Positions 18,061 to 64,000 of a stretch of 64,000 bases of DNA are shown in pieces. The notes beneath the pieces are model-generated. The model saw only the letters and a program-made list of their open reading frames with translations, ran no database searches and had not been told where the DNA came from. The position numbers and the translations under genes are program-made. Position 1 is the stretch's first letter. Each line of letters opens with the position of its first letter. Origin of the DNA: Mesorhabditis belari (taxonomy: Eukaryota; Nematoda; Chromadorea; Rhabditida; Rhabditidae); NCBI GenBank assembly GCA_958450365.1, contig CAUEEP010000925.1, positions 1,612,001 to 1,676,000 of the forward strand. Direction: 5' to 3'.

Positions 18061-21000
18061 ATGGAGACAGCGGTTCATGGGAGGAGTTTAGCGTTGGCCG
18101 AATTGTTGGCTGAAGGAAGGATTCCGGAAAATGGAATTGATTTGAGGTTGGTTCAAAATGTTGAATGTTTAAATGAAAAACTTTCAAGTCACTTCAACAA
18201 CAACAACAACGAGATCGACTCACTGGATGGGGGCTTCCTGTTGGGAGTGAAAGGATTGGGATCCGAGTCCGCTCAAGTCTCACATTCGTCGTCATTGGAA
18301 AGTCTGGATTCATCTCCTGGATCACTCGTCAACCATATGGGCAGTCAGGTATGGGAAAAGTTCAAGGCCTTGTCTTTCTGGATGAGTTGATGGAAGATTT
18401 TGTCTTCTTGGATGACTTGTTGGAAGATTTTGTCTTCCACTCTGTAAGAGTTTGGCAAGATCGATCCCGGGAACAGTTTTGAGTGAGATCAAGTTCAAGA
18501 TCGAGATCAAGATCAAGATCGAGATCAAGATCAAGATCAAGAAAACTTTGCGAATTCAGGAACCCGACGACGATGGAGAGTCAACCTCGTGTTCGGAGGA
18601 TTCTTTCGAGATGTCGTCGACTTGTTCGACTCGGGAAACACCCGGCCATTCGCCCAATCGAGAGGGAACCTCTTCGTCGTTCACTTCGGGAGGCACTGAG
18701 TACAAGTCAGTACAAAAATAGAATCGCTTATCAATTCAACCAGCCGAAAAACCAAAACAGAAGAAAAGCCGGATTTTCTGGCTTTCTGGCGGGTTTCAAG
18801 CAAAAGCCCGGTCAGAGCCGGGAGTCGAACCCGGACCCTTTGGGTTGTAGACGAGCTCGCTGCCGGCTGCGCCACGGCGACCTGAAGACGCCGAAGGAAA
18901 AACCCGCTCTTAACCGGGTTTTTTGGTAATAGATGAGAGCCGATGAATTTGAAACCAGCTTAATAGCGGCTTTTTTTCACTAGGTGATCAGACCGTCGTG
19001 GCGCAGTGGAGAGCGCGTTTTTTACGGCCCACGCGATCCGGGTTCGACTCCTGGCCGTGACCTGACTTTTGCTTTTTAGTCTAAGAAACCTAAAATTATG
19101 TAAATTGGCTCACGGGAAGATGTGATGAACGGAGAGACAGACAAACGGACGAGCAAACAGACAGACACAGCTCTTTTATATAGTGGATTCTAGACTTGAT
19201 GACGACTCCTCTGCCGCTCCGACTCGTGAAGGATCCACCGATCGAGAGTCATCACCATCAAGCTCAATGATTCGAAAAGGACCCTCGACTTCAATGTCGA
19301 TGGACTCTTTCTTGTTGAGGGTTTGTTCTGGTTCAGTTACGCAAATTAAGACCAAGATAGATAGATTTATTTGAAAGGATAGAGCAAGTTTGGTTTTGGT
19401 CCAGTTTTGGCCCAGTTTTAGGCAATTTTTGGACCAGTTTTGGCCCAGTTTTGGCCCAGTTTCCGCTCAGTTCCCAACTCTTGACTCTTCACCCAAAACT
19501 CAACCGAAAGAAATCAAAGCCAAAGTTTCTAGGATCGAATCACGAACCTTCGGGAAAGCGTCGATGAATTGGACACGGGTTTGCCGAAACTCGACTTTGA
19601 TCGTCTCGAGAAACAACTCCAAACAGCCGCCAAAGAGAGAGAAGACAATGAAAGGAAATTGCTCGGTGAAGAGGTGAGAATTTGATTTCAAAAAATTATT
19701 GCATTCTTATTGCATTCAAAATTTGTGCATTCAAAATTATTGAATTCAAAAAATTCGTGCTTTCAAAATTATCTTTTCATCCATTAGCTTTTGATCCAAA
19801 TCTTTTGATCCAAATCTTTTGATCCAAATCTTTTCATCCAAATCTTTTGATCCAAATCTTTTCATCCAAATCTTTTGATCCAAATCTTTTGATCCAAATC
19901 TTTTGATCCAAATCTTTTCATCCAAATCTTTTCATCCAAATCTTTTCATCCAAATCTTTTGATCCAAATCTTTTCATCCAAATCTTTTGATCCAAATCTT
20001 TTGATCCCACTAATCGTTGTTGGGATCCCGAATCTTTCAATCTTTTCATCCAAATCTTTTCATCCAAATCTTTTCATCCAAATCTTTTGATCCAAATCTT
20101 TTGATCCAAATCTTTTGATCCAAATCTTTTCATCCAAATCTTTTCATCCAAATCTTTTGATCCAAATCTTTTGATCCAAATCTTTTGATCCAAATCTTTT
20201 GATCCAAATCTTTTGATCCAAATCTTTTCATCCAAATCTTTTCATCCAAATCTTTTCATCCAAATCTTTTCATCCAAATCTTTTGATCCAAATCTTTTCA
20301 TCCAAATCTTTTGATCCAAATCTTTTCATCCAAATCTTTTCATCCAAATCTTTTGATCCAAATCTTTTCATCCAAATCTTTTGATCCAAATCTTTTCATC
20401 CAAATCTTTTCATCCACTAGCATTCTATCCAGATATATAATCGATTCTAGACTTGATGACGACTCCTCTGCCGCTCCATTAGCGAATGCTAATGGAATTT
20501 AATCCAGAATTTAAAAATGAATCCTTTTAACAACAAAGGAATCTTAATGAAATCAAAAAAATAATCTCGAATATTTTACGAGCTTTTCCTTTTCCGATTT
20601 TAATCAAAAATTTTCGAAATTCTAGATATTTCCCGAGTCATTTTTTCAATTTTTTTTGAAAAATTAAAAAAAAAATTAAAATTAGCAAAAAACCGGGTTT
20701 CTATGGATGATTTTAGGGTAAGAAAGGGGAAACGAAAGAAACGGAGAAAAGCAAAATTAGCGTCTCAGCGGGGATAATGTCCGTGATGGAGAAATGGGGA
20801 AAAAGATGGGCATTTTTTAGCCATTTTTTGCTATTTTTTAGCCATTCCCCTTCCTAGATGAGCTGCACTCATCATATTTTTTCGCTGACTTGAGGATATT
20901 GTCTTAAATTTTAGATGTGCGTTCCAGTTTAGTCAATGGACGGTTTAGTATGTGACATTGGACTTTTATTTGCTGGGTTTTAGATAGAGTGCCTTTCAGT

Positions 21001-24000
21001 TTGGAGGATTGAAAGGTTTAGAATGTGGACTAGAACCTTTATTTGTTTGATTTTAGATAGGGTGCCTTCCAGCTTGAGGATTGAAAGGTTTAGAATGTGA
21101 CCTACAACCTTTATTTGCTGGGTTTTAGATAGGGTGCCTTCCAGCTTGAGCAATGACGAGTTTAGAATGTAACCTACAGCCTTTATTTGTTTGATTTTAG
21201 GTAGGATGAGTTCCAGATCGACCAATGACGAGCTTAGAACGCAACCTACAGCCTTTATTTGCTTGATTTTAGATAGGGTGCCTTCCAGCTTGAGTAATGA
21301 TGAGTTTAGAATGTAACCTACAACCTTTATTTGCTTAATTTTAGATAGCATGAGTTCCAGATCGACCAATGACGAGCCTAAAAATTAGATTGGACTTTTA
21401 ATCGGGCATAAAATGCGGTTTTCTTGAAATCCCATTCCCATACCCCATTTTCACCTGTCTTTACTCAATGAAAAGCTCAAGACGTCGAGATTTCGAAAGG
21501 AATTTTGACCTTACTTTGTATTTCTTGCGAAATCTTGAGCCATTCTCAAGCTCTAGAACTTTTTAGGGTTTCAAATTTGCACTCTGGACCAAATTCTACA
21601 GTAGTAGTCGAAATTTGACTGGAATTTGACTGAAATTTGACTGGAATTAGACTGGAATTTGACTGGAATTTGTATCTCTTGCGAATCCAACGAATCCAAC
21701 TTTTGACATTCCTAGGTTCGTCGCCGTTTGGCCATGCAAGTGGACGCGGTTTACTCGGGTCCAACTCCTTCAATTTCCACGAGACCGAATCGATCGAATT
21801 TAGCGCTTCGCTTGCAAATGGCTATGAATTTACAGGTAATTTCTAGATTTAAAGATTGAATAAATCTTGAATAAGAAGACGAATTAAATAGATTTGAACA
21901 TTTTGAGAAAGATTGAAGCTTTTTGAGGAAGATTGAAGCTTTTTGAGGAAGAGTGAAGCTTTTTGAGGAAGATTGAAGCTTTTTGAGAAAGATTGAAGCT
22001 TTTTGAGGAAGATTGAAGCTTTTTGAGAAAGATTGAAGCTTTTGGGGAAGATGGCTTTTGAGAAGTTGAGCTTTTGAGGAAGATTGAGCTTTTGAGAAAG
22101 AGTGAAGCTTTTGAGGAAGATTGAAGCTTTGAGGAAGATTGAAGCTTTTGAGAAAGGTGAAGCTTTTGAGGAAGGGAGCTTTTGAGGAAGATTGAAGCTC
22201 TGGAAAGAGTGAAGCTTTTGAGGAAGATTGAAGCTTTTTGAGAAAGATTGAAGCTTTTTGAGGAAGATTGAAGCTTTTTGAGAAAGATTGAAGCTTTTTG
22301 AGGAAGATTGAAGCTTTTTGAGAAAGATTGAAGCTTTTTGAGGAAGATTGAAGCTTTTTGAGGAAGATTGAAGCTTTTTGAGGAAAGAGTGAAGCTTTTT
22401 GAGGAAGATTGAAGCTTTTTGAGGAAGATTGAAGCTTTTTGAGAAAGAGTGAAGCTTTTTGAGGAAGAGTGAAGCTTTTTGAGGAAGATTGAAGCTTTCT
22501 GAGAAGAGTGAAGCTTTTTGAGGAAGAGTGAAGCTTTTTGAGAAAGATTGAAGCTTTTTGAGGAAGATTGAAGCTTTTTGAGAAAGATTGAAGCTTTTTG
22601 AGGAAGATTGAAGCTTTTTGAGAAAGATTGAAGCTTTTTGAGGAAGATTGAAGCTTTTTGAGGAAGATTGAAGCTTTTTGAGAAAGAGTGAAGCTTTTTG
22701 AGGAAGATTGAAGCTTTCTGAGAAAGATTGAAGCTTTTTGAGGAAGAGTGAAGCTTTTGATAATTCCAAATCCCTCTATAGTATTCTATTTACGTTTAGG
22801 TTTGCTACATCAATGAGATGAGCGAAACGAGCGATGCTGAGGCGTCATCTTCAGGTAAGCTTCGGGAAATGAGCCTTTTCCATCAGCTTTTTACAGGACT
22901 TGTGAGGAAACTGAACATTTTCTTTAAGAAGTAATCTTTTTTAAACGATCATAGTTTATTCTGGATGTCACAAAAGCTAGAAATGGCGATAAAGAGTAAA
23001 ATTCAAGAAATTAGCCTTTTTTATCAGGTTTTTACAGGACTTGTAACCAAATTGCAAACTTTTCTCAAGAACTGATCTTTTTTAAAAGATCATCGTTCAT
23101 TCTGGATGTCACAAAAGCTAAAAATAATTTCAGAAAGCGATGACAAGTAAAATTAGTCTTTTCTGCCTTTTCTATCAGCTTTTTACAGGACCTGTGAGGA
23201 AATTGAACATTTTCTTTAAGAAGTAATCTTTTTTAAACGATCATCGTTCATTCTGGATGTCACAAAAGCTAGAAATGGCGATAAGGAGTAAAATTCGTGA
23301 AATTCGCCTTTTTTATCAACTTTTTACAGGACTTGTAACCAAATTGCAAATTTTTCTCAAGAATTGATCTTTTTTAAAAGATCATCGTTCATTCTGGATG
23401 TCACAAAAGCTAAAAATAATTTCAGAAAGCGATGACGAGTGTCGAATGCCGAAGAGTCGCTCAGTGCCTTGTTTGCGGTCGAAATTGCGAGAAGATCCAT
23501 TGATAAACGTGTTAAAAGAACGAGTTTCACAAGGAGATCAATTAAAACCAGGTAAGCGCATTAAAAGTGAACGTTGGCTTGACTCTTGGCTTGACTCTTA
23601 GCCTTTTCTAAACCTAGGGCTCCTTGTGTTAGCAGTTTGTCCGAGTTCTCATCAATTTCTTGGCTTAAAACCTAAAGGAATTTAAATTCTTCGATTTTTT
23701 TCATCTATCTGGATGTCATTCTCTTAAATGAGCTAAAAATGAAATAAAATCGATGATTTTTAAATTAATCATAAATTATTTGGAATTTTTCCTGGAAAAG
23801 GCGGTTTTTAATGGTAAAAAGAAGATGAAAAACATTTTTCTAGAACGGAGAACGATGCTAATTTGTCTTCTTTTGGCTTTTCTTTAGACGTTGAAGGGAT
23901 TAAAGAAATTTTTTCCTTTCTAGGATTAGAGAGGTCAATTTTTTGAACTGAAAAAAGTGAAAAAAGACTAAAAAATTGAAAAAAGACCCAAAAAGCCTCA

Positions 24001-32408: not shown

Positions 32409-32769
32409 TTAAACTTTCAAAAAAGCAATGCGAATCGTTTCTCTGACGACCAGAAACGACAAAATGAGGAAATTGATTAGGGAAATGAAGCCTAAGCCTA
32501 AGCATTTCACCTGCCAAATTTCTATAGCGGATAACTACCGAATTGTTAATTAATTTCTCACCATTTTCCTTTTAATTTTAATTCGGATAAATGAAAGGGG
32601 GAAAAAAGAAAGGGGAAAAAGAAAGGAGATAAAAGAAAGGGGATAAAAGAAAGGGGATAAAAAGGGATTTTGTTTTCCTCAATTTGTAGTACTTTTCTTG
32701 AATTGTCATTCTTGTCACACTTTTAAAGTTTAATTTTCTAAAATCCTGAATCTATTGAACTTTTTAGAT

Positions 32770-33495
32770 ATCGTGACATCCAGATTGGGGTTATTTCTTC
32801 GAAATTACAGACTTTACTTGGCAAATTTTCAAAAATTCGATGAGAACTTAGAGCTTCCAAAAATTTTTTTCAATCTTGGATTTCACAAAATCTATTAAAC
32901 TTTTTGGATACAGTGACATCCAGATTGAAGTTATTTCTTGGAAATTACAGACTTTATATGGAAAATTTTTCCAAAAATCGAGGAGAACTTGAAAATCCAT
33001 CAGAAATTTTTTTAAATCAACGATTTGAGTTTAAAATTTCAAATCTTTCAACTCTGTGACATCCAGATTGAACATATTTGCTAGAAATTATAGACCAGAT
33101 TTGAAAATTTTTAAAAAAACCAAGGGGATCTTGAAAGTTCTAAAAAAACTTTTTTTAATTCTGGATTTCACAAAATCTATTGAATTTTTTAGATACAGTG
33201 ACATCCAGATTGAAGTTATTCCTTAGAAATTACAGACTTTATTTGGAGGATTTTCAGAAAATCGAGGAGATCTTGAAAGTTCTAAAAAAACTTTTTTTAA
33301 TTCTGGATTTCACAAAATCTATTAAACTTTTTAGATATAGTGACATCCAGATTGAAGTTATTCCTTAGAAATTACAGACTTTATTTGGAAAATTTTCAAG
33401 AAATCGAGCAGTACTTGAAAATTCTTCAAAAACTCAGAAGTTCTTTCGAATTCTAGCTCAATTCTAGCTATTTCAACTCTGTGACATCCAGATTG
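32770..33495. repeat. Array D: six 141-bp units with GTGACATCCAG
   Basis: Box starts at 32773, 32913, 33056, 33198, 33340 and 33481 (spacings 140, 143, 142, 142, 141). Most units also carry TTCTGGATTTCACAAAATC about 35 bp before the box; this is the same box on the other strand with one change, so each unit can form a 12-bp stem. It lies between the two DUF273 genes. Confidence 0.95.
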
Positions 33496-37000: not shown

Positions 37001-39620
37001 TTCTAATGATACAAAGGCCGTATAGAAGGTCTTTCTAGCTCCGCCCCTTTTGCCACTAACTTTAAGCTCAAATATCTCGGCTTTGGATTGTCCTGTATCA
37101 ATAGTTTTTCTACCAATCGATAGAGAGAGACTTGGCGCATCTAATGATACGAGGCGCGTATATAAGGCCTTTCTAGCTCCGCCACTTTTTCCAATCTAAC
37201 TTTAAGCGCAAATATCTCGGATTTGGGTGGTCCAATTTAGATACTTTTTATACCAATCGATAGAGAAAGGCTTGGCGCATCTAATGATACAAATAAGATC
37301 GGAATTCGATAGCCCAACGCCGAGATATTTGAGCTCAAAGTTGAGCTAGCTGATTATAGTCTAACCTGGTCTATTTCAGCCTAAATAAAACCAAATTACT
37401 TTCTCAAATCGAGGTAGATCTAGCCTTCCTGGAGGTAGATCGTGCTAGATCTAGTCTTCCTTCTGACCTACTCATAGACCAGAGCCAAATCTAGGTCCGA
37501 CTCTGGTCCAAGTCTTTCCTAAACCGAAAGCAAGCCTTGATGGCAAGATGGGAATCAGAAAAATGGCAAATTAGAAACAAATTTCTGCGATCTGGAGTAC
37601 ACGAAAGGATTTGGTTAATTGATTTGAGCGGAATTTGCGAGTTTTGAATTCTGAGCCGGGATGGGCTAGCCTAGTCAGCCGGCTGTCAAATGGAGTGTCA
37701 AATTGGTGATTTGTGCAGCTCAGAGCTGATCAACTGGGCTCTGGGTGTTGGCAAAACCCTAAGCAGAGTCTCTAGCCCGATAACTAACCCATATCCGCAT
37801 CCAGCATCACAAACCATTCGTGCTCTGTCGTGTTCATGAAGTTTGCAAGGATACAATGCCGTTGATACATATACTGAATCGCTTTTTTATTCAAATTGGA
37901 GGTCAGGAAAGGTTTTGGGACTGGAAAGGGACTGGAAAAGGACTTTCCGGACGACCAGATTTGTTAGTTTCGAGTTCAAGTCCAGAAATCTGTTCAAAAC
38001 TGTTTACTAGCCAATTCAAACGATTTTTTGGTTTTTCTGGAGGTCACCTGAAACTCGAAAAGATTAAAATCGTTGATTTTGAATGATTTTTCAATTTCCA
38101 TTTCCTCAAACTCACATCTTCCATTGCACATCCTTTCACATTCTCTTCATCGTTCACAAGCAAATAATAAGGGATTTTCCTCGATTCACAATAGCATTTC
38201 ACTGTTTTTTGAGCAAATTCGTACTCAGCAATGTTATCTCGATTTTTCAACAACGCCACAAAAGCATACGAAACATCCTAAAGCTATGAAAGTTCAATTT
38301 TTTCAATCTTGACCTTCACGAAATCTATTAAACTTTTTAGATACAGTGACATCCAGATTGATGGTATTTCTTAGAAATTACAGAGTTTATTTGGAAAATT
38401 TTTAAAAAATCGATGAGAACTTGAAAATCCATAAAAAATTTTTTAAATCAACGGTTTAAGTCTCAAATTTCAAATCTTTCAACTCTGTGACATCCAGGTT
38501 GAGCATATTTGCTGGAAATTATAAACCAGACTTGGAAAATTTTCAAAAAATCAAGGAGAACTTGAAAGTTCTAAAAAAATTTTTTTAATTCTGGATTTCA
38601 CAAAATCTATTCAACTTTTTAGATCCAGTGACATCCAGATTGATGGTATTTCTTAGAAATTAGAGAGTCTATATGGAAAATTTTCAAGAAATCGAGCAGA
38701 ACTTGAACAGTTAAAAAAAATTTTTTTTAATCCTGGATTTCACAAAATCTATTAAACTTTTTAGATGCAGTGACATCCAGATTGAGCATATTTGTTAGAA
38801 ATTACAGACTTTATTTGGAAAATTTTCAAGAAATCGAGGAGAACTTGAAAGTTCTAAAAAAATTTTTTAATTCTGGATTTCACAAAACCTATTCACCTTT
38901 TTAGATACAGTGACATCCAGATTGATGTTATTTCTTGGAAATTAGAGACTCTATTTGGGAAATTTTCCAAAAATCGAGCAGTACTTTAAAATCAACGATT
39001 TGAGTTTAAAATTTCAAATCTTTCAACTCTGTGACATCCAGATTGAACATATTTGCTGGAAATTATAGACCAGACTTGGGAAGTTTTTAAAGAATCAAGG
39101 AGATCTTAAAAGTTATAAAAAAAATTTTTTAAATCCTGGATTTCACAAAATCTATTAAACTTTTTAGGTATCGTGACATCCAGATTGAAGTTATTTCTTA
39201 GAAATTACAGACTTTGTTTGGGAAATTTTCCAAAAATCGAGCAGTACTTGAAAATTCTTCAAAAACTCAGAAGTCCTTTCGAATTCTAGCTCAATTCTAG
39301 CTATTTTCCTAGAATTCTAGCTCAATTCTAGCTATTTCAACTCTGTGACATCCAGATTAAACAAATTTGCCAGAAATTTGCCCAGAAAATCGTACCCTCT
39401 TCGGCGTAGGTTGGATAAAAGTCGAGCTATTCAAGAAATCGAAGAGTAAATTGTGGGATGAGATCGGCGACGAAAGATCATCTGAAATTCGGACGCTGTG
39501 CATGCCAGCTTAGCCGAAAATCCCCAAAAACAAACCTCTTTTAAAGTATTGTACAAGTAAAAAGAGGCTCGACACGACGGAGAAGAGTAAAACGAAAAAG
39601 AAACGTTTTCTTTTGATCAT
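34046..39620 (-). CDS. DUF273 glycosyltransferase-like protein, gene 2
   Basis: Paralogue of gene 1. Twelve exons: 39620-39536, 39481-39396, 38277-38116, 37873-37789, 36521-36404, 36359-36266, 35983-35907, 35609-35534, 35385-35291, 34562-34491, 34268-34188, 34145-34046; the phases give 376 residues. N-terminal signal anchor RKRFFFVLLFSVVSSLFLLV; then YCESRKIPYYLLVND, EWFVMLDADMG, NRVMNSEIMTGSYIVR, RFGSDNAAVH, FLYEVCVRNLLDN and SYVRDGWLTGGKFS. It has one intron more than gene 1 (35534/35385). The start follows TTCATTTTCAG by 5 nt, with a short ATG-TAA upstream. The last intron is 42 nt and ends TGTGACTTCCAG. Introns have grown by array E, a foldback family, four tRNA-like units and a CCAG repeat. 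The C-terminus is shorter than in gene 1 and has lost the HWTKTGLVF block. Confidence 0.9.
34290..34482. repeat. 16-bp minisatellite AGCCAGCCAGCTAGCC
   Basis: About 12 near-perfect copies in an intron of DUF273 gene 2. Confidence 0.95.
34680..35260 (+). repeat. Four tandem units each containing a tRNA-like sequence
   Basis: tRNA-like parts at 34779-34848, 34910-34980, 35050-35119 and 35173-35244, separated by shared spacers (GGTTCATTTGGGT, TCTCCTTGGGG). D arm GTGGCCGAGTGGTAAAGCC; B boxes GGTTCGATCCC and variants. In units 2-4 the anticodon arm is CTCGT TTCTAGA GCGAG (or a one-base variant), formally anticodon CTA, which would read the UAG stop codon; unit 1 reads CCA. Acceptor and T stems pair poorly, so these look like decaying tRNA copies or SINE heads. 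They lie antisense in an intron of DUF273 gene 2. Confidence 0.6.
35645..35885. repeat. 10-bp minisatellite AAGGCTTGTA
   Basis: About 23 copies of AAGGCTTGTA/AAGGCTTCTA in an intron of DUF273 gene 2. Confidence 0.95.
36575..37335. mobile_element. Cluster of foldback/MITE copies (AAATATCTCGGCTTTGG family)
   Basis: AAATATCTCGGCTTTGGATT and its reverse complement occur repeatedly in both orientations, with TACCAATCGATAGAG, CTAGCTCCGCCCCTTTT and TATATAAGG elements between. At least four half-elements are nested head to head in intron 4 of DUF273 gene 2. A compact hairpin of the same family is at 53328-53500. Confidence 0.7.
38340..39360. repeat. Array E: eight GTGACATCCAG units in DUF273 gene 2
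   Basis: Box starts at 38346, 38487, 38638, 38770, 38910, 39031, 39173 and 39345; most gaps are 132-151 bp, one 121 and one 172. Sequence is homologous to array D. The array makes up nearly all of the intron between exons 2 and 3, with the + strand box antisense to the gene and the TTCTGGATTTCAC half giving GTGAAATCCAG in sense. Confidence 0.95.
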
Positions 39621-41366: not shown

Positions 41367-41454
41367 ACCGCTAGTTAGAGGTAAAAAACTTTCTTGATCT
41401 GGAAAAAAGTTATTGCGTTTTTTGAGGCTTGGGAACTTTTGGCCATGATAAAGA

Positions 41455-41745
41455 AGCTGTCAATCTCTCAGAAATTCGTCTCCAAAGCTCTAGTGACTTC
41501 CAGAACTACATTTTATCCAATCAACGATCCAGTTTAGTTACCCAAACGGCTCTTTTCGATCCGGTTCAGTTACGCAACTTTTGACTATCATCCAGAAGCT
41601 GTCAATCTCTCAGAAATTTGTCTCCAAAGCTCTAGTGACTTCCAGAACTACATTTTATCCAATCAGTGACCCGATTTAATTACCCAAACGTCTCTTTTGG
41701 ATCCGGTTCAATTACGCGACTTTTGATCGAAGTTCGAACCAGCCG
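41455..41745 (+). repeat. Array F: two units with GTGACTTCCAG and two SL1-like motifs
   Basis: Units of about 143 bp containing CTCTAGTGACTTCCAGAACT, then AGTTTAGTTACCCAAACGG or CGATTTAATTACCCAAACG, then CCGGTTCAGTTACGCAACTT. Inverted relatives form 43400-44160. Confidence 0.9.
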
Positions 41746-42284: not shown

Positions 42285-42650
42285 GATTCTTGAGCTTTCT
42301 AGGCATTTTGGAGCTTTCTAGGCTATTCTTGAGCTTTGTAGGCTATTCTGGAGCTTTCTAGGCTATTCTGAAGCTTTGTAGGCTATTCTTGAGCTTTGTA
42401 GGCTATTCTGGAGCTTTGTAGGCTATTCTTGAGCTTTCTAGGCTATTCTGGAGCTTTCTAGGCTATTCTGGAGCTTTCTAGGCTATTCTTGAGCTTTCTA
42501 GGCTATTCTTGAGCTTTCTAGGCTATTCTGGAGCTTTCTAGGCTATTCTTGAGCTTTCTAGGCTATTCTGAAGCTTTCTAGGCTATTCTTGAGCTTTGTA
42601 GGCTATTCTTGAGCTTTCTAGGCTATTCTTGAGCTTTCTAGGCTTTCTAG
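42285..42650. repeat. 20-bp minisatellite GAGCTTTCTAGGCTATTCTT
   Basis: About 18 copies with T/G variants, very regular. Confidence 0.95.
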
Positions 42651-43399: not shown

Positions 43400-44160
43400 A
43401 GAGAAATGTGAAATCTGGAAGTCACTGGAGTTTTGGACACGAATTTCTGAGAGATTGACAGCTTCTGGATGATAGTCAAAAGTTGCGTAATTGAACCGGA
43501 CCGAAAAGAGCCGTTTGGGTAACTAAACTGGAACGCTGATTGGATAAAATGTAGTTCTGGAAGTCACTGAAGCTTTGAAGACGAATTTCTGAAAGATTGA
43601 CAGCTTCTGGATGATAGGCAAAAGTTGCGTAATTGAACCGGTACCAAAAGAGCGGTTTGGGTCACTAAACCGGATCGTTGATTGGATAAAATGTGAAATC
43701 TGGAAGTCACTGAAGCTTTGAAGACGAATTTCTGAAAGATTGACAGCTTCTGGATGATAGTCAAAAGTTGCGTAATTGAACCGGATCGAAAAGAGCCGTT
43801 TGGGTAGCTAAACCGGATCGTTGATTGGATAAAATGTAGTTCTGGAAGTCACTAGAGCTTTGGAGACAAATTTCTGAGAGATTGACAGCTTCTAGATCAT
43901 AGGCAAAAGTTGCGTAATTGAACCGGACCGAAAAGAGCCGTTTGCGTAACTAAACTGGAACGCTGATTGGATAAAATGTGAAATCTGGAAGTCACTGGAG
44001 CTTTGGAGACGAATTTCTGTAAGATTGACAGCTTCTAGATCATAGTCAAAAGTTGCGTAATTGAACCGGACCCAAAAGAGCGGTTTGGGTAATTAAATCG
44101 GATCGCTGATTGGATAAAATGTGTATTCTGGAAGTCACTGGAGAGGAATCTCTCGAAAAA
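43400..44160 (-). repeat. Array F': six inverted units with CTGGAAGTCAC and SL1-like motifs
   Basis: CTGGAAGTCAC at 43415, 43557, 43700, 43842, 43985 and 44128 (spacings 142, 143, 142, 143, 143). Each unit carries, on the minus strand, CCGGTTCAATTACGCAACTT and CCGGTTTAGTTACCCAAAC. Same family as 41455-41745 in opposite orientation, with the tRNA-Asn-derived cluster between. Confidence 0.95.
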
Positions 44161-49900: not shown

Positions 49901-52011
49901 ATTCATTTGATTCATTCAGTTCATTCAGTTCATTCGGTTCCTCCGATTCCTCCGATTCCTCCAGCTTCTCCAGTAACCCAAATCAAATCAATTCCCCCCA
50001 TTTAGTTTCTCAATTGGATGCGTTTCGTTCGTGATGATTGCCCGCGAGTGAAAATGATTGTCAAAATGGATGGTTGGCTAAAGAAATTCCTTGATTTGAA
50101 AGGAATTTGAAAAGAAATTTCGAAATTTTGAAGAAAATTCCATTTTCAGACGACATTCTCCCAAATATTCACTGGATTTTCGACGATTTTCACAATGGGA
50201 CAATGATTTCGGAAGAAAACACGTTCACCTGCTTAGAATATCACAGTCCAGTCGTTAGGGAAAAAGGATCGCCTTGGTGAGTGAGGAAAAGGAAGTGAGG
50301 AAGTGGATTAGTTACCCAAGTGGTCAAGTACCCTTTCTAAAATGCATCAAACGTTTACAAACCTCATTTTTTTAAACGTAATCTATATTGTGACATCCAA
50401 TTTGAAGAAATGTAAGATTTCAAGGGAAACGGCTTTTAAATAATAGTGAAAATTTAGAGCCAAGATTACCGTCAGATAAATTTCTGAAAAGCTTTAATAG
50501 AGCTTCAGAAAGCTTTAGAAAGTGTTTGTGCGTTCCAGATCACTGAAAAATTATGTCAAAAAAGTGATACACGCTTTAGAAAATGAGTTATTCAAGTCTA
50601 GCCGAGTCCAGTTGATTTCCAAAGTTTTGACAAGACTTTTCAAGTCACTGACAAGTTTTTCATAAGTTCTGGAAGGCACTTGAGAAATCTAGAAAAAGAA
50701 AATATTGATTTAGAGATTTTGGAGAAAATCGGATTCCGGTTCGGTTCATTTACGCGATTTCACTTAAGATTTCGCGATTTCCACTAAGCCGGCCTTTTAT
50801 GCTCAATCTGTGCGCTAGAAAGGGTGTGTTTACGCTGGATTACTGCTTTTTTAGGTACGTTTCAAAAGAGGCTCATCCGGGCGATGATTGGGAAGCTTTC
50901 TGTTGTGGACCGGCTTTTATCATGGTTGGCTTTTCCAAACTTTTCCAAATCCATTCAATCTCAAATCCATTCTTTCAGTCAGCCGACCTGATATCCAGAT
51001 TGGTGAAAAATATTGAAAACAAGCGATTTTACACATCGGTTTGTTTCCAAATTTGCCCAAACTCGTTTCGAGCTATCATAGAGAAAAATTTTAAGACGAC
51101 ACCCGGATTTTTCTAGTCATTTCCATGTCGTGCGCTCCAGATTGCCGATTGACTCAAATTCAGGTCGATGACGCCTTTGTAACGGGTCAAATCGCGAAGG
51201 AGATCGCAGCGAACCACGATTTTCGGCTATACGAGCACAAGTTTGTTTAAAAAGCGGGAAATCTCGTTGCATTTCTGGCTAATCTTGGATCAATTCCAAT
51301 CCTGAATCCAATTCCCATCCATTTTTAGCTTTCTGTGGCCCGGCTGGCCTGGGTGGGAGAAAATCGTCGAGAGGAAGATGCTGGCGTGGAAAGTGATTTT
51401 TGGTAAGTGGGGAAAATCAGTTAATTTCTCTAAGCAGGGGACCCTGTGCATTCCAGGATTCACGAATTCAAAAGATTACGCTAGAAAAATCAGCTAACTT
51501 TTGAGATATTCAGCCATTCTTATACCTTAGATGCACTTTGTAGCAAAGTGGAAACGTTCGGGTTTTTTTGAAACCAGGGGACCCTGTGCCTTCCAGGATT
51601 TATGAATTCAAAAGATTACTCTAGAAAAAACAGCTAACTTTTGAGATATTCAGCCATTCTTATACCTTATATGCACTTTGTAGCAAAGTGGAAATGCTCG
51701 CGTTTTTTTGGAACCAGGGTACCCAGTGCCTTCCAGGATTTACGAAATAATTAAAATTTCCATCAAAAGCCACCTAATTCACGAGAAATCGCTGTCATCT
51801 AGATTTAGCTCGTATCTTCTCTGTGCTCACAGTAAACGCACCGTCTCTGGCGCGCTCTATGTCGGTTTAATTGTAGTTTTCAGGTGCTTACACAACGACG
51901 ACAGCGATGAAGCGAATTTTCGATGAGCTGTCCCATTTGAGTGGAGCTGTTACCGATCCACCCGATGATCTCCCCTGGTCGAATAAAGTTGGACCGAAAA
52001 ATTTTGAATAG
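46977..52011 (+). CDS. GT31 family beta-1,3-glycosyltransferase
   Basis: Golgi type II enzyme that adds Gal, GalNAc or GlcNAc in beta-1,3 linkage. Twelve exons: 46977-47096, 47145-47228, 47377-47436, 47859-47948, 48310-48447, 50006-50072, 50150-50276, 50855-50924, 50979-51038, 51164-51240, 51329-51402, 51884-52011; the phases give 364 residues, the usual family length. N-terminal anchor TLLILLFATILFVLM; N-glycosylation sequons (NET, NDS, NET); then the GT31 signatures LFIVHTSIANHKRRAAIRET, EARQYRDILQIDYIDAYRN, KMIVKMDDDI (the metal-binding DDD), FCCGPAFIM and VDDAFVTGQIA. The start lies 4 nt after GATATTTAG, a likely trans-splice site. A short exon between 48447 and 50006 could be missing. 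That 1.5-kb intron holds a tandem TTCATTCGG repeat; others hold GTGNNNTCCAG boxes. Acceptor sugar not predictable. Confidence 0.9.
47240..47370. repeat. 10-bp minisatellite GTCTTTGAAC
   Basis: About 12 diverged copies in GT31 intron 2. Confidence 0.9.
48050..48161 (+). tRNA. tRNA-like sequence with duplicated D arm
   Basis: GGATGGCTCAGTGGTCCAGG then a second AGTGGTTAGAGCACATG: the D arm is duplicated around a CCAGGATGTC. Long variable region and B box AGGGTTCAATCC follow. In GT31 intron 4, sense. Not foldable as a normal tRNA. Confidence 0.45.
48554..49000 (-). CDS. Possible nested antisense ORF in GT31 intron 5
   Basis: Open frame of 148 codons opposite the GT31 gene. N-terminal half is Gln/Leu-rich with LIQEIQEIQEIQEQLQEYDD repeats predicting a coiled coil; the middle (GDYFYSSISSIDSDLEN) looks protein-like; the end runs into a GAACCAAACGTAAATG repeat. 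No family, no splice evidence. Could equally be chance. Confidence 0.2.
   Translation of the reverse strand: MKQLKLQRLLKKQLLKQQLSKQQLFQETLYSYCSQWKWFSLLTSHSALRLIQEIQEIQEIQEQLQEYDDKWMLIGVREVTSRGNPGDYFYSSISSIDSDLENEGLGDDVIKENSATIQPQVWFGSFTFICFIYVPLVRLRSFGSFTFI
49673..49975. repeat. 9-bp minisatellite TTCATTCGG
   Basis: More than 30 copies of GGTTCATTC with TCCTCCGGT variants in GT31 intron 5. Val-His-Ser-rich frames over it are artefacts. Confidence 0.95.
51420..51745 (+). repeat. Array G: three 140-bp units with GTGCMTTCCAG
   Basis: ACCCTGTGCCTTCCAGGATT-type boxes at 51447, 51587 and 51727 (exactly 140 bp apart), sense in GT31 intron 11. Units share GAAAAATCAGCTAACTTTTG and ACCTTAGATGCACTTTG. 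Confidence 0.95.
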
Positions 52012-56870: not shown

Positions 56871-58120
56871 GCTTGTCCCATAAAAAATTGCCGCTTTTCA
56901 AAAATTTTTATTTTCAACACAATAAAAAGTAACAACCAAGATCATAGAATATATTTTTATAGACATTTAACCAACGTTTTGGTAACTTTTCAAGTCCCCG
57001 CTTGTAAAAATCGGGTTGTCGTGAAAGAAAGTAGTCCTTCAATTCGTCCTTGAGGTCACCTTGGTTGTTGAATTGCTTGCCTCGAAGGAAATCCTTTAGC
57101 GACAAAAATAAGTAATAATCAGAAGGAGCAATATCCGGGCTATAAGCGGGATGTGAAAGTACATTCCAGTGCAAATTGTTTTCCACAAAATTCTTCGATT
57201 TGTGAGAAGGAGCGTTGTCTTCAAGCACAAAAACGGAAGCATTCCATTCATTCTGATAGAGCAATCGGAGAATTTTCTGCTCAACTTGTTCCATACGGCG
57301 TATATAAACATCACTGTTAAAAGTTTGACCCTTCTGGAGGAGCTCCCAAAAAAGTATGCCAGAGCAACACCAATAGACACACAGAAGTCGCTTATTCCCA
57401 TGAATATTTCGTTTTGGCACCACTTTTCCCAATCGACCTTTCCTCAACCATTGCCGTTTCAACACTCGACCATCATAGAAGATCCACGATTGATCATGAG
57501 TCACTATATTGGAAAGAGGAAGCTGACCGCATCGATATTCGTTCAGTAGTTGACGGCATGACCGCGCTCTTTGGTCCTTAATCGAATTGTTCAGTTGATA
57601 GGGAATTTGCCGCTGTTTCAACCACTTTCTTCCGGTTTTTTTTGAGCCAACGCCATACTGTCATTCTTCCGCAATAATCTTTTGCCAAAATCCGAGTCGA
57701 TCCTTCGGGATTTTGCCGGAGTCGGCGCCTCAACGTCTGTCGATTCACTTTTCTGGGATGACCACTTCCTCGCTTTCGTGTGAGCCGGATGTCACCTTTT
57801 CGGAATTTCTGAAACCACCATCGTGCAGTCCTTTCCTTGACGATTGTTAATCCATAAAAAAAAAATTGATTTCTCTCGTTGCTTTGGCCGCTGAAATCCT
57901 CTTCAAATATCGTTGATACAGGTGTTGATTGATTTCTTCACGAGACGGCGCCATTTGATCGATCACAACTTTTTCTGTTTTTGGTTTCTAAAAAAGAAAA
58001 TTTAGCACATAAAACTAGAATTGTAAAGCAGTATAATAAAAAAAAACAGAAAGAGAAAGTGTTAATTTGTCGCTGAATACGAATCAAATGAAAAAAACGG
58101 CAATTTTTTATGGGACAACC
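56871..58120 (-). mobile_element. End-to-end mariner transposon
   Basis: 1,250 bp bounded by inverted repeats: GCTTGTCCCATAAAAAATTG on the left and its match (CAATTTTTTATGGGACAACC) on the right, each flanked by TA (56869-70 and 58121-22), the mariner target duplication. It encodes one minus-strand transposase. Structure is intact, so insertion is probably fairly recent. Confidence 0.9.
56914..57952 (-). pseudogene. mariner transposase with two homopolymer frameshifts
   Basis: Starts MAPSREEINQHLYQRYLKRI (57952). Helix-turn-helix part RWWFQKFRKGD, RKRGSGHPRKVN; catalytic block I VTHDQSWIFYDGR, block II VLEDNAPSHKSKN, block III SPDIAPSDYYLFLSLKDFL, giving the mariner D,D34D arrangement. The open frame from 57621 covers the catalytic half. 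Two one-base shifts interrupt the N-terminal half, both in homopolymers: a run of nine T's (minus strand) near 57860 and eight A's near 57640. They could be real decay or sequencing errors. Confidence 0.85.
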
Positions 58121-58139
58121 TAATAACTGTATAAGGGAA

Positions 58140-58700
58140 AGAGCTCTTTTTACCCGCTTAGCCTTATCGAAGATACATGTTGGTGAAAATGGGATTTTTT
58201 TAGAGTTCAACAAAGCGCCTGCTGACATCCAAATCGATGAAAAGTTGAATCAGAATCGAAAAATCCCCCGTTTGCTGTCAAGATTTTCACTCGTACCCGA
58301 AATTGGGTAAATCGATTTTTGTGGAAATCGTTTCCGTCAAAAGTTTCTTTGCAAAAAGCTTGTGTGCCATCCAGGAATTGGGTTTCCGCTTTTAAAAAGC
58401 TGCATTTCCAGAACAGTGACCCCGAAAACCCTGCCGTACACCGCGTACACCCAGACGGCCTTTCACAAGTTCGTGAAAATGGGATTTTTTTTTGAGTTCA
58501 AAGCGCCTGCTGACATCCAGATCGATGAAAAGTTAAATCAGAATTGGAAAATCTTGCTTGACTGCCGAGATTTTCAATCGTACTCGAAATTGGGTAAATC
58601 GATTTTTGTGGAAATCGTTTCCGTCAAAAGTTTCATTGCAAAAAGATTGTGTGCCATCCAGAATTGGGATTCAATTTGTAAAAAGCTGTAAGAACAAACA
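58140..58700 (+). repeat. Array H: paired boxes 141-142 bp apart, plus an exon-like block
   Basis: CTGACATCC(A/C)AG boxes at 58223 and 58511, TGTGCCATCCAG boxes at 58365 and 58652. Between them, after CATTTCCAG (58411), the block CCCCGAAAACCCT and CGTACACCGCGTACACCC recurs at 63956-64000. GTGAAAATGGGATTTTTTT precedes each unit. Confidence 0.85.
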
Positions 58701-58704
58701 GAAT

Positions 58705-59035
58705 AAGAAGGTTTTTAAAAAGTTGTTCTTTGATCGAATTTTGTCGCAATAATAAGAAATAAAAGATCGTATTTAACTGTATCATTTACAAGGGAAGGCC
58801 AACTGGATGGCCAAAACCGATTCGATGCAGAATTTCGATGCTTTCAATGCAGAGTGATGCTGCTTTTCTTTTTTTGGTATGGAAAACTCTGTTGAAAGTT
58901 ATATGCTTTGTAAAGCTGTTCTTTAAAGTTTTGTAAGGAGTTTCAAAAAAGCAAACTAGCAAACTTGTACTCTTGAATATTTACTTTATTTTTACGCTTT
59001 TTTTCACAGCTTTTTTCAAGTCACAACTTTCAATT
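58705..59035. other. Nothing recognised
   Basis: AT-rich spacer before the mariner fragments. Confidence 0.35.
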
Positions 59036-59039
59036 TTTA

Positions 59040-59680
59040 ATGGATATTTGCTTTAGATCATGGTGGATCAAAAGTCTGTTGTGCGCGCGTGTCTTCTCGA
59101 CGATTTCTTCTTCCGTCCTCTCTACGAGGGACAAAAACGCTGCCGAATCACATCGTGATCTCTATTCCACTTTTGGAGAACAAGTTATGACTGAAAGATC
59201 CTGCCAGCTCTGGTTTGCCCGATTCCGGGAAGGTATTGAATCTCTTGAAGACGAATCACATGGACATCGCTCGGCAACGATCGATAAGAATGAATTGGAA
59301 CAACTTGGTGAAGCCGATCCAATGCAAAAAACACGAGAGCTTGCCAAACATCTCCAATGTGATCAATCAACAATTGTCTGTCATTTGGAAATAAGCGGAA
59401 AGGCCAATCGTAATGGACGATCGGTTCCACATCAATTGAACACCGAGAATCTAGGAGCACACGTTTCGATCAGCCATATCTTGCTTCTCAAGTCGAAAAG
59501 AACGATTTCAAGATGGGCAAAAACGCTGCCGAATCACATCGTGATCTCTGTTCCACTTTTGGAGAACAAGTTATGACCAAAAGATCATGCCAGCGCTGGG
59601 TTGCCCGATTCCGAGAAGGTATTGAATCTCTTGAAGGCGAACCACATGGACATCGCTCGGCAACAAACGCTTATTTCTCG
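59040..59680 (+). pseudogene. Two N-terminal fragments of another mariner transposase
   Basis: The DNA-binding region (NAAESHRDLYSTFGEQVM, CQLWFARFREGIESLEDE) is present twice, at about 59130-59280 and 59515-59665, the second just after IDKNELEQLGE...KHLQCDQSTIVCHLE and HQLNTENLG parts of the first. No catalytic domain. The first copy begins near MVDQKSVVRACLLDD (59059). Different from the 56.9-kb element. Confidence 0.75.
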
Positions 59681-59699
59681 ACACTTTGTACGTTTGTTT

Positions 59700-61020
59700 C
59701 TCCGCGCTTAGGTATCAAATTAAAGTAGAGAGAATGGGTGAGGTTTTGAGATATAACACATATTTTTAGCATTAACCAGCGCTTAGAACAAAATGATTGA
59801 AAATCGACTCTTTTTTGCCACTTTTTGCCACAGACACTAGACATGGGCCGCGAGTCGAGTCGAGTCAGAGGTCCTCGACTCCTGACTCGTGACTCAACTT
59901 GACTCGGCACGCGTTAGCCGAGTGGAGAACCCTCACACATGTCACAAATTCTGAAGGATTTGCAAATTGATTCGCTTCTGTTGCCTGGAGGGTGCACCAA
60001 GCATGTGGTTTGGCCTTAAAAAACACGAATTCGAGCTGAATATGAATGAATAATGAATGAGCGAATGAGTGAGCGAATGACTGAGTGAGCGAACGACGTT
60101 GACTCGCAGTGGAAATCCAGTCACCACCAATGAAAACCGATCTATTGGTTTGTGAAACGAACACCCGAAGAACCTCAATCATGCTCTCAGTCAAGATTGT
60201 GGTCAAGAATTGTGCGATTCCCATGGCTACTGATAGATCAAAAGACAATCTCATTCATTGCTTCAAGAAAGAAGGACCGATTCCTAGAGGCGATTGCCGA
60301 TTGATGACGATTGATGACTGCAAGACTCGCCAATGCTCGACTTGAGCAATCCATAGCAATCCATCAATAGCAATTCATCAATGATCAACTTGGATATTGA
60401 ATTTGGAGATAATGATTTGGATAACGATTCTTGAGTGATTCCTGTTAATTTCTTGATTATTGATTTATAAGCTGTTCTCCGTTGAGGTTGAGTTGATGGT
60501 TTTATTATTAAAGTCAACTTTTAAAGCTTTTTAAAGCTAGCTTTTTTTAGTTACCCTATAAATTTAGCTGTATTTCATCGTAATTTTTTCAATAAATTCT
60601 CCAATTTTCTGATCAAAATCGGGAAAAGTCGTGCAGTGAATGAGGGAAAAGAGACAATGAAAAGCTGCACGAGCCAATATTTAGCAAAAAGAAACGAGAA
60701 AGGGGTAAAATGAGGACAAATATTGTCACCAAGGTCTCTCTTTCTTTAGGCTTTCTGTAAAAAAGCACGTAAATTTACTTCCGTAACCCCAATGTTGATG
60801 TTGGTGATGATCAGTTGGTGATGGTCAGTTGAGCTGATTTGGACACAGTTAAAATTGAATTTTTCGAGCACAGACAAGATTTTCCGGTGTTCTGGAAGTC
60901 ACAGGATTGATTGCACTATGTAGCACTAGGTTTTATCGCTCGTACCTCAGCTCTAGTCCCTAGTATGACAAGGTCTACTAGGTGGTGAGCTTTAAAACGC
61001 AGAAAATCGGTTAACCGATG
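59700..61020. other. No gene confidently recognised
   Basis: Contains CGAGTCGAGTCAGAG and GAATGAGTGAGCGAATGA short repeats (59850-60100), and a minus-strand TTCTGGAAGTCACAGG box at 60892. Frames lack support. Confidence 0.4.
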
Positions 61021-61024
61021 CTTG

Positions 61025-61480
61025 ATTTTCAACTGTGCGCTCCAGTTTGGCAGAAACAGTCACTGTTTCTCGGAAATTGAGCAAACTGGCCACAAATTGG
61101 CTTCGATTCGATTCGAGATTCGGATTCGACGCAACCCTGCAGGCTTTTTGTTATGTTTCGATATTTTTACGTAAAATTTATTCAAATTGGATATCACGTA
61201 AAGGTTTGGCGATTGAAGATTGGCGATTGCTTTGGCTAAAGCTAAAGCTTAGTATACGGTAGTCGTACAGTGGCTGACCCTCAACTGGTCTTAACCAGCT
61301 TTGTTAAGCTCAAAGCTGACCCCACCAAAAACGTGAGTTCAAATGCGATGAGCTCCAGGAAAGACGAAAATCGAGAAGAGGACTCGAGAGACGCGAGAGG
61401 GGCCAAGAAATGGGCGCAGAGTCGTGGTGGTGTTGTCGTCTCGGGGAGGGATGGGGGTAGGGATCCCCTCGGCTGCTAGT
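61025..61480 (+). CDS. Possible upstream exons of the Pro-rich gene
   Basis: After TGTGCGCTCCAG (cut near 61044) a frame reads AETVTVSRKLSKLATNWL; after GTACAG (cut near 61271) another reads ADPQLVLTSFVKLKADPTKN, ending at a GTGAGT donor. Both look coding and have splice-like borders, but I could not link them by phase to each other or to 62792. Low confidence. Confidence 0.3.
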
Positions 61481-61974: not shown

Positions 61975-62640
61975 ATTGGAAACCCCATTTTTCTCGATAA
62001 ATGCCTTCCAGAATGGAATTTTTGTTTTGTCGGATCAACGGTTTCTTCTCTGGTTTTTGAGAAAATTGAGGCAGAACTTTCAGCGCTGAACTCGAAATTT
62101 CAATTTTCACTTTTATTAGCTAAAAAATGGCTCAAATTGTTGTGTGACCTCCAGAATAGACTAATCTTTTTGAATTTTTGGATTTCTAAAGTTCAGCTTT
62201 GAGAAATTGTGGCATAACGTTCAGCGCTGAACTTAAAATTTCTATTTTCACTTTTGTTAGTGAATAAATGGCTCAAATTGTTTTGTGACCTCCAGAATGA
62301 ACAAATCCAAAAAAATTTTTGAATTTCTAAAGTTGAGCCTTGAGTAATTGTGTCATAATGTTCAGTGCTAAACTCGAAATTTCAATTTTGACTCTTTTTG
62401 GCGAATAAGTGGCTCAAATTGTTGTGTGACCTCCAGAATCGACCAATCTTTTAGAATTTTTGAATTTCTAAAGCTCAGCTTTGAGAACATTGGAATTGAA
62501 CGTTCCGACGCTAAATTCGAAATTTTAGTTTTCACTTTTATTAGCTAAAAAATGGCTCAAATTGTTGTGTGACCTCCAGAATCGATTAAGCTTTTTGAAT
62601 TTTTGAATTTCCAAAGTTGAGCTTTGAGAAAATCGCGTCC
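61975..62640 (+). repeat. Array I: 142-bp units with GTGTGACCTCCAGAAT
   Basis: Boxes at 62144, 62285, 62426 and 62569 (spacings 141, 141, 143), with GGCTCAAATTGTTGTGTGAC before each. A diverged unit with ATGCCTTCCAGAATGG is at 62000. Sense to the gene at 62792. Confidence 0.95.
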
Positions 62641-62791
62641 GAACGTTCAAAGCTAAAGCTTCAGAAAACGCTCGAGAAAAAAGCGGGTTTTCCAGGTTCC
62701 ATCAAAATCCTGGAGTTAACTCTCGCCATCCGTGGACTCCAATTTTCAAAAATCCATCTCAAAAACCCGATTTTTTCATCACAAATTCCAG

Positions 62792-63061: not shown

Positions 63062-63064
63062 CTA

Positions 63065-63400
63065 GATAAATGCAAATTCGATCTTTAATGCAAATTTAGA
63101 AAACTCAAAGTTGCGAAATAAAAAATAAAAAATTGTAAAATTAAAAAAGCAAAAATTTTGTAAAAAATTCGCCTAAAAATTTTGTCTAAAAAATTAGCAT
63201 AAAAAATTGCGTAAAAAAATTAGCATAAAAAAATTGCCTAAAAAAATTAGCATAAAAAATTGCCTAAAAAAATTTGCATAAAAAATTCGTAAAAAATTGT
63301 CTAAAAAATTGTCTAAAAAAATTGTCTAAAAAAAATTTGCATAAAAAATTTTGTCTAAAAAATTTGCATAAAAAAATTGTCTAAAAAAATTTTTTTTTTT
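63065..63400. repeat. AAAAAATTAGCATAAAA degenerate repeat
   Basis: Variants of AAAAAATTGCCTAAAAAAAT and AAATTTGCATAAAAAATT, AT-rich and degenerate. Confidence 0.85.
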
Positions 63401-63474
63401 CTGACGGTTTCCCTCAAATTTTATTTTCAATTTGTTTACTGTGACATCCAGGACTAACAAATTTCATGTTTTAG

Positions 63475-64000
63475 AGTCGGGAAAAAGAAGCGATCCTCAT
63501 CATTTGGCCCCCTTTCGATTATTCGACTTTCCCCCTCGCCATTCGCTCGCACCCCGTCCCCATCACCGCCCGAATACGAAGATCATTGGCATAGGTAGAA
63601 GAAAAACCGATTCCAACCCATTTAAAGCTATGCTTTTACTTAGATTGTACCGTATCCGAGCGTGGCTTGTCTTTTTTGCTTTGACGATCTTCACATTCTC
63701 CTTTGTCGCCGGATACTTTTTTCACAAGTTCGTGAAAATGGGATTTTTTTGAGTTCAAAGCGCTTGGTGACATCCAGATTGATAAAAAGTTAAATCAGAA
63801 TTGAAAAATCTTGCTTGACTGCCGAGATTTTCCATCGTACTCGAAATTGGGTAAACCGATTTTTGTGGAAAGCGTTTCTGTCAAAAGTTTCATTTCCAAA
63901 AGCTTGTGTGACTTCCAGAATTGGGATTCCGCTTTTAAAAAAGCCACATTTCCAGAACAGTGACCCCGAAAACCCTACCGTACACCGCGTACACCCAGAC
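63475..64000 (+). CDS. Second Pro/Ser-rich exon and following exon, runs off window
   Basis: Exon 63475-63594 (after TGTTTTAG, donor GTAGAAG) reads VGKKKRSSSFGPLSIIRLSP then SPFARTPSPSPPEYEDHWH, a paralogue of the tail at 62966 (SPSPLAPTPSPTPPED). A further exon may begin at 63956 after CATTTCCAG and continue past the window; its phase is unclear, so the reading frame (NSDPENPTVHRVHPD or TVTPKTLPYTAYTQT) is open. Either a tandem duplicate gene or an alternative 3' end of the preceding gene. Confidence 0.4.
63720..64000 (+). repeat. Second copy of the array H unit
   Basis: More than 90% similar by eye to 58180-58460 and 58475-58690. Boxes GTGACATCCAG at 63767 and GTGACTTCCAG at 63908, 141 bp apart. 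Confidence 0.9.

Follow-up and report, generated by a model that had tools for sequence, protein, structure and literature searches.

The CenH3-associated tandem repeats of the nematode Meloidogyne, with their 19-bp box, were reportedly the subject of a study by Despot-Slade et al. in 2021. These tandem repeats are described as divergent in sequence, sharing the 19-bp box and associating with CenH3 (PMC9673304, PMC11538461), and other Meloidogyne satellites, of 32–64% identity, are described as sharing a conserved CENP-B box-like motif (17 bp) and junction boxes (PMC3694981). In Caenorhabditis elegans, the periodic An/Tn clusters (PATC) make up 6–10% of the genome, and introns rich in them shield transgenes from silencing in the germline (PMC7725773); the structural consequences of their rhythm have been called unknown (PMC3819648). 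Here we describe a short conserved box that recurs at steps of about 142 bp in a 64,000-nucleotide stretch of Mesorhabditis belari DNA (the window; contig CAUEEP010000925.1, here C701, positions 1612001–1676000). The pattern is real, genome-wide and unusual, and its sequence is most readily explained as phased chromatin DNA, of PATC-like or satellite type, in a variant that is anchored by a box.

Among published systems the closest precedent is the 19-bp box found in the Meloidogyne holocentromere repeats, likened by description and not by the letters of the box: in both nematodes one short conserved box lies in divergent tandem repeats (PMC9673304, PMC11538461), so that the claim of an earlier note on this DNA, that no described nematode system is like it, was too strong. 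The M. belari elements differ in that they also occur singly, tile introns and have flanks whose A/T phase is locked to the box. The CENP-B box-like satellites likewise combine a conserved box with low overall identity, but their box sits where monomers join and has been proposed as a driver of rearrangement, whereas here spacing and phase are fixed (PMC3694981). With PATC DNA the M. belari elements share a ~10-bp A/T rhythm that continues past one nucleosome, rotational constraint and a location in introns (PMC3819648, PMC7725773, PMC9071541). We find A/T clusters with ~10-bp periodicity, a periodicity that reaches to +240 downstream and only to about −130 upstream, and a location in introns and gene flanks, the last seen in one gene with predicted exons. 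PATCs, however, are defined by rhythm alone, and the passages on them in PMC3819648 and PMC7725773 name no fixed sequence anchor or 142-bp step. What is new here is that the flanks have a common pattern rather than a common sequence, and that this pattern is locked to the box.

Rice CentO is a centromeric satellite with rotational phasing, and plant centromeric satellite sequences have, as here, been proposed to set nucleosome phase; those satellites are homogeneous, whereas the bodies of the M. belari units cannot be aligned. In a literature search, with most subscription journals outside its coverage, none of the papers listed for the letters of the box was about nematodes by its title, and no listed title dealt with a box that anchors PATC phase. 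The comparison raises the question of whether the holocentromere box of Meloidogyne exemplifies a principle more widespread among nematodes.

Spacing of the box

The broad form of the box, GTGNNNTCCAG, occurs 40 times on the plus strand and 35 times on the minus strand of the window, and the strict form, TGTGACNTCCAG, 12 and 7 times. The strict form was absent from 60 second-order Markov copies of the window, where the broad form averaged 1.32 (maximum 5), against 19 and 75 observed. In full, the motif is degenerate and spans ~22 bp, with the approximate form [TC]nnt-[GAC]TG[AC][CG]nTCCAG[AG]WT[GT]nn[CG]AAA. The whole assembly (207.6 Mb, 714 contigs) contains 4,034 strict boxes, spread over many contigs, compared with 11 matches to the same pattern read backwards. 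Pairs of GTGNNNTCCAG on the same strand were counted by their start-to-start distance: 5,259 lie at 127–157 bp (31 for the reversed-pattern control), 4,588 of them at 138–146 bp (control 13), compared with 105 at 96–126 bp (control 36) and 169 at 158–188 bp (control 25), and short simple repeats account for part of these last two counts. The recurrence every ~140–145 bp reported in the earlier note is thus confirmed in the window and then genome-wide, and the plot of distances that it proposed gives the sharp peak that it anticipated.

Boxes on opposite strands form 425 convergent pairs at 127–157 bp and 27 at 158–188 bp, and are less strictly spaced when divergent (430 and 215), the reversed controls being 0 throughout. 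Among the 50 convergent pairs listed of the 425, 26 lie at 134–145 bp, 24 at 150–155 bp and none at 146–149 bp; these distances appear bimodal, at ~141 and ~153 bp, and there is a minor mode at about 164. The 27 convergent pairs at 158–188 bp fall to 20 once seven copies on contig C569 are subtracted, and 12 of the 20 lie at 163–166 bp. For divergent pairs the steps are weaker: among 50 listed of the 430, thinned to 35, the value was reached by 9 of 3000 nulls. All listed opposite-strand pairs were the first in contig order, mostly from contig C159, with no sequence deduplication. In the elements studied here the step pattern was striking in the raw data and not significant after removal of duplicates (20 pairs). 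We give these discrete steps no weight, since ~12.4 and ~11 bp do not correspond to whole turns of the helix.

Rules based on similarity or shared words were used to remove redundancy in the tests of rhythm and its reach, of non-homologous pairs and of the loci L026 and L027; redundancy was left in the 401-pair homology, splice-distance, cruder AA/TT, 1,213-pair and 46-array counts given below. Neighbouring elements were compared by local alignment with the box masked. Homology was found in 145 of 401 adjacent pairs, 228 were non-homologous and 28 fell between the thresholds. Non-homologous pairs closer than 360 bp numbered 179, or 98 after removal of duplicated segments, and these 98 comprise 59 pairs at 125–180 bp, 4 at 181–289 bp, 32 at 290–345 bp and 3 below 125 bp; where both members lie on the same strand, 33 of 55 are at 138–147 bp. 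A search for hidden elements in the middle of the ~320-bp gaps gave 4 of 30 gaps above the 95% level of the null, which indicates that these gaps are mostly element-free; several of them contain exons (judged by eye and, for one gene, by coordinates). A tandem-repeat search blind to the box, run on the window and loci L009–L027, returned 46 arrays with a period of 139–146 bp, a count that includes repeats (at least three of the four L022 arrays duplicate arrays of the window or of L017), and 39 of these contain the box within one mismatch.

The genome-wide peak and its persistence across non-homologous neighbours support, as far as sequence goes, the suggestion of selection on the box and its spacing. 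The spacings listed in the earlier note for arrays B, C, D, F', G and I agree with the sequence, and those for array H (142, 146, 141) are recovered with variant boxes at 58227–58656 but not with the exact broad form, which matches only at 58364 and 58651, 287 bp apart. Its range for the boxes, 20905–63925, was too narrow, as array B (13829–14558) falls outside it and 68 of the 75 broad boxes inside. The description of the arrays as unrelated does not hold for all of them: by eye, the arrays at 32.7 and 38.3 kb belong to one family and those at 41.4 and 43.4 kb to another. Nor is the box the sole sequence feature that they share, since the bodies also have a common AT/GC pattern.

An A/T rhythm in phase with the box

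A/T content in the flanks oscillates with a period of ~10.2 bp (downstream 10.25 bp, bootstrap 10.20–10.30) and a phase that is fixed relative to the box, which at the level of sequence supports the nucleosome-scale role proposed in the earlier note. The rhythm was studied in 132 non-redundant boxes (of 253), picked by an 11-bp string alone. Measured from the start of the box, peaks of A/T lie at about +20, +31, +41, +52 and +62 downstream and at about −9, −21, −31 and −40 upstream. Random shifts of up to 15 bp reproduced the profile in 0 of 1000 trials on each side, and isolated boxes (n = 39) give the same profile. When the box itself was excluded, a profile of the flanks separated held-out boxes from background with an area under the receiver operating characteristic curve of 0.975 in ten-fold cross-validation, or 0.958 when reduced to AT/GC letters alone. 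Pairwise identity of the flanks is 0.296, compared with 0.283 for sequences that preserve the AT/GC pattern and 0.265 for random genomic pieces.

The pattern extends to loci on which the profile had not been trained. Flank scores were positive for 24 of 27 boxes in L001–L008 (these loci overlap and some boxes are counted twice) and for 19 of 26 and 18 of 19 boxes in L026 and L027 (37 of 45), background positions scoring positive in 3–4% of cases; between the A/T profile of 16 non-redundant boxes from these last two loci and that of the training set the correlation is 0.64 (null maximum 0.37). Downstream, the phase is kept to +240: for 114 boxes separated by more than 260 bp from any other profile-called element, the amplitude at +130 to +240 is 0.062 against a null 99% level of 0.030, and for boxes chosen by the string only (125 of 145 after removal of redundancy) the downstream rhythm to +240 was reached by 0 of 500 shuffles. 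Over the same interval flank identity is 0.260, where composition alone predicts 0.258. No phase lock above the null 99% level was seen at any range for five control words from the same loci, one of them with the box's own AT/GC pattern; for a sixth control, the reversed box, the loci contained no site.

DNA outside the elements has AA/TT periodicity as well, at 1.111 (1.090–1.131) in box-rich stretches and 1.056 (1.036–1.073) in box-poor ones, and a cruder comparison gave 1.14 between elements, 1.07 within them and 1.07 in poor loci. Inward-facing minor-groove positions of the nucleosome served as the reference comb in a scan for a dyad, on calls made, like the element calls used for homology, distribution, splice-site distances and constraint, with a profile that contains the box. 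The best contrast was at +5 (0.192), with +15.5 close behind (0.176). As a hypothesis, the box centre is therefore the best dyad candidate of the comb scan, a position about one helical turn away being nearly as good.

Genomic setting and competing explanations

The one gene examined, in locus L019, encodes a tyrosine-phosphatase domain (PF00102, E 8e-7; the overlapping phosphatase-fold model PF22785 also matches) that we take from its signature to be of PRL type. Fifteen elements, lying on either strand, have their centres in its three introns (8, 5 and 2), whereas the four predicted exons have none; box elements are also present outside the gene. Of six items near boxes compared with Pfam, this gene alone scored above the cut-offs; matches to a Na/H exchanger, a teneurin-EGF and an FtsX model fell below them, and two exons had no match. 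Histograms of the distance from elements to TTTCAG and GTRAGT have no peak apart from bins made by the letters of the box itself, namely 13 anti-strand TTTCAG at +20 to +24 (the [CG]AAA end of the box) and 7 same-strand GTRAGT at its start (GTGAGT). A splice signal is rejected on these grounds, together with the presence of both orientations within single introns, and with it the description of the box as splice-acceptor-like; the use of both strands and the lack of a fixed splice-site distance would rather suggest a signal that is read on DNA.

Introners have been linked to nucleosomes. They too are repeated elements that reside in introns (PMC9860276), but the elements of the L019 gene occur several to an intron, in both orientations, also outside the gene and not bounded by splice sites, which does not fit an introner. 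The suggestion of an intron-growth unit is about half right: the introns of the one gene examined are tiled by elements, whilst elements also lie outside it. A recognition site of a non-autonomous element is not supported: no element boundary was seen, the flanks at +130 to +240 being at composition-level identity. Two further candidates were set aside. The CENP-B box is 17 bp long with a CGGG core, which by eye the consensus here lacks. The nematode (Ruby) promoter of Piwi-interacting RNA (piRNA) has, as the motif is given in PMC6436959, a GTTTC core that is absent from the box consensus.

The boxes are found on many contigs, yet are clustered on C701. Seven of eight C701 stretches sampled up to 1.6 Mb have 0–3 elements per 10 kb, and the eighth (L013, at 1.40 Mb) has 14, partly low-complexity matches that are doubtful, as are calls at 60-bp steps at 42353–42533 of the window. 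The window holds 118 elements in 64 kb; L017 (which includes 1000 N), L018, L019, L023 and L025 hold 33–53 per 10 kb, L020 (1.85 Mb) holds one, and L021, at the contig end, has 17 in 6.7 kb. One set of stretches was chosen by position before the boxes were mapped; L023 and L025 lie within a known rich domain. Contig C77 (L022) repeats parts of C701, and C159 repeats C569. These pairs of contigs resemble alternative haplotypes or recent duplicates, given the element pairs common to L017 and L022 and the constant coordinate offset between C159 and C569. The assembly also has 3,545 matches to (TTAGGC)5 on many contigs, with internal tracts on C13, C20, C30, C32, C58, C77 and others, and some internal (TTAGGC)n tracts share contigs with box clusters.

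Transitions usually outnumber transversions. Across 16 A/T columns outside the box, the base that predominates has a frequency of 0.51; its A/T alternative stands at 0.32 and the transition partner at 0.09, of which decay from an ancestral A or T would be expected to leave relatively more. Such swapping between A and T, with few changes to G or C, can hardly be squared with neutral decay of one ancestral satellite. Between related units (1,213 pairs) A/T-to-G/C changes run at 0.139 in A/T columns and 0.211 in other columns. Mismatch among related units is 0.01–0.05 at most fixed positions of the box, 0.14 at its first position and 0.28 in the flanks, the box figures being biased by a profile that itself contains the box. 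The pattern as a whole looks like selection on the physical phase of the DNA, A/T versus G/C, and not on bases.

These base frequencies bear directly on the proposal of a single ancient tandem repeat family that spread and decayed, leaving the box, the AT/GC pattern and the 142-bp step as functionless remnants of the ancestral monomer. In its favour, the units can be united in a single profile, many arrays are simple tandem duplicates (145 of 401 adjacent pairs being homologous) and some arrays of this period have no box. The excess of the other A/T base over the transition partner is nevertheless the reverse of what decay would produce, flank identity barely exceeds that of the AT/GC-preserving set, the phase extends past one unit into DNA of composition-level identity and the spacing is kept by non-homologous neighbours, so that we regard this explanation as rather unlikely. 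The earlier note had held that a single diverged satellite family would overturn its reading; the uniting profile answers only in part to that description, since its content is mostly AT/GC phase and not base identity, and common descent of the units is neither shown nor excluded by it. It is unlikely that the units are holocentromere elements on which CENP-A (HCP-3) nucleosomes sit, with the box helping to recruit or place them, although this has been proposed for Meloidogyne repeats of the same design (PMC9673304). A step of ~142 bp would suit a particle shorter than the full H3 nucleosome, and the boxes lie on many contigs. In C. elegans, however, HCP-3 avoids germline-expressed genes, whereas here the elements tile introns of a conserved gene, and the clustering of boxes, with so few elements in most of the sampled C701 stretches, also speaks against a holocentromere.

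In C. elegans the ZIM/HIM-8 motifs are 12 bp long, clustered in chromosomal domains and embedded in unrelated repeats. The box resembles them in being a short motif clustered in domains within unrelated repeats, and could belong to another chromosome system of this kind, such as meiotic pairing centres, with the rhythm incidental; to our knowledge neither a phase lock nor a 142-bp step is a feature of pairing-centre motifs, and we consider this very improbable. We give least credence to a signal acting at the level of RNA or of a mobile element, be it a splice acceptor, piRNA promoter, introner or transposon terminus. The TCCAG of the box looks like a 3′ splice site, boxes lie within introns and some neighbouring boxes face each other; but the splice-site distances peak only through the box's own letters, both strands are used within one intron, convergent and divergent pairs are about equally frequent at 127–157 bp, and the core lacks the GTTTC of the nematode piRNA motif (PMC6436959).

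The explanation that we favour, with a probability of roughly 0.55, is that the box anchors rotationally phased, nucleosome-length chromatin in the introns and intergenic DNA of box-rich domains, in effect PATC-like DNA with a fixed anchor. Wrapping of DNA on a histone surface, in a setting fixed by the box, would account for the rhythm, for a step of nucleosome scale and for the AT/GC constraint. In such a scheme a protein or complex would bind the box on double-stranded DNA and fix how the DNA is set on the histones, rotationally and, at a local scale, also translationally, and successive boxes would build a regular fibre of ~142-bp steps, 142 bp being 14 turns of 10.15 bp. New copies would arise by tandem duplication of a single unit, after which selection would keep box, phase and spacing while the remainder drifts. 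More tentatively, and by analogy with a proposal on PATC DNA in C. elegans, this might let genes in repressive surroundings stay expressible in the germline. The nucleosome repeat of C. elegans oocytes is ~178 nt (PMC3819648); a 142-bp step is shorter, which implies either particles on alternate boxes or a particle smaller than the full H3 nucleosome. Such a particle may be CENP-A-like or otherwise, a distinction that sequence does not make.

A bolder version, possible though we doubt it, is that a dedicated DNA-binding factor, with the box as its address, would build a genetically encoded fibre of non-canonical nucleosomes, 14 helical turns each, tiling the introns and intergenic DNA of whole domains. 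Evolution would then keep one word, the A/T phase and the step, leaving other sequence free to vary, and the box would be a fixed anchor of a kind that C. elegans PATC-type DNA is not known to have. A genome whose rhythm is locked to a fixed word offers a bait with which to look for the protein that reads it, and sites aligned in their thousands on which chromatin can be mapped.

Several observations weigh against box-anchored phased chromatin. Upstream of the box the rhythm is less regular than downstream, and beyond −130 it is weak (reached by 61 of 500 nulls in one test, below the null 99% level in a second and reached by 9 of 500 in a third). Seven of the 46 arrays have no box, divergent pairs are not limited to ~142 bp, box-poor DNA also has AA/TT periodicity (1.056) and the rich locus L026 is low (1.028). 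The dyad position is not unique, mirror symmetry of the profile favouring +10.5, and the box-rich loci L022, L024, L026 and L027 were picked from lists of box hits. Nucleosomes are here inferred from sequence, as are the binding protein, the type of histone and the function.

Features of the window

Table 1. Box arrays and elements mapped in the window, in positions of the 64,000-nucleotide stretch.
Feature	Position	Strand	Remark
Array, period 144, ~3.9 copies, variant box, no GTGNNNTCCAG within one mismatch	10958..11517	-	profile calls at 10909-11481
Array B, ~145-bp box steps	13744..14558	-	
Array, 144-bp unit containing a 72-bp half-unit	20965..21377	+	
Array C, boxes 22961, 23102, 23253, 23394	22866..23440	-	
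Array D, each unit with boxes on both strands	32749..33491	+	
Second D-family array	38296..39355	+	
F'-family array, orientation opposite to 43404-44143	41434..41726	+	by eye
Array F', 6 boxes, 142-143 bp steps	43404..44143	-	
Three elements, unrelated bodies, + + - at 50395, 50533, 50674 (138, 141 bp)	50389..50679		
Array G, 3 boxes, 140-bp steps	51435..51746	+	
H elements 58227, 58369, 58515, 58656; successive bodies non-homologous	58227..58661	+	
Divergent box pair (- then +), starts 142 bp apart	60892..61045		
Array I, boxes 62143, 62284, 62425, 62568	62006..62631	+	non-homologous element at 62006, 143 bp ahead
Isolated element 63446; non-homologous pair 63772, 63913 (141 bp)	63440..63918	+	

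In the two D-family arrays the boxes on opposite strands are, by eye, 37 bp apart. A second word, TACAGGACT, is common to the unit consensuses of three otherwise different arrays (10958–11517, 13744–14534 and 22866–23440) and sits near the GC-rich junction between units, both points being judged by eye. Two arrays of period 140 in the window, at 34778–35240 and 36876–37293, are box-less; the unit consensus of the former looks tRNA-like by eye, and an Rfam scan of the window gave nothing at gathering scores.

Pieces of a Mariner-type transposase lie at 56917–57660 (minus strand) and 58977–59573 (plus strand), with matches to PF01359 (E 2.1e-18) and to the Mos1 helix-turn-helix PF17906 (E 1.8e-11). 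Related, intronless-looking open reading frames (LCYDL...EV..LDPKD...) are present in the window at 5339–6592 (minus strand; no Pfam match for this copy) and in L010, L012, L013, L014 and L020, the family being found where boxes are few, the start of the window included. Many arrays with units of 10–20 bp stand beside the 142-bp arrays, at 8483–8905, 12288–12542, 19771–20416, 21901–22758, 24408–25121 and 42286–42648.

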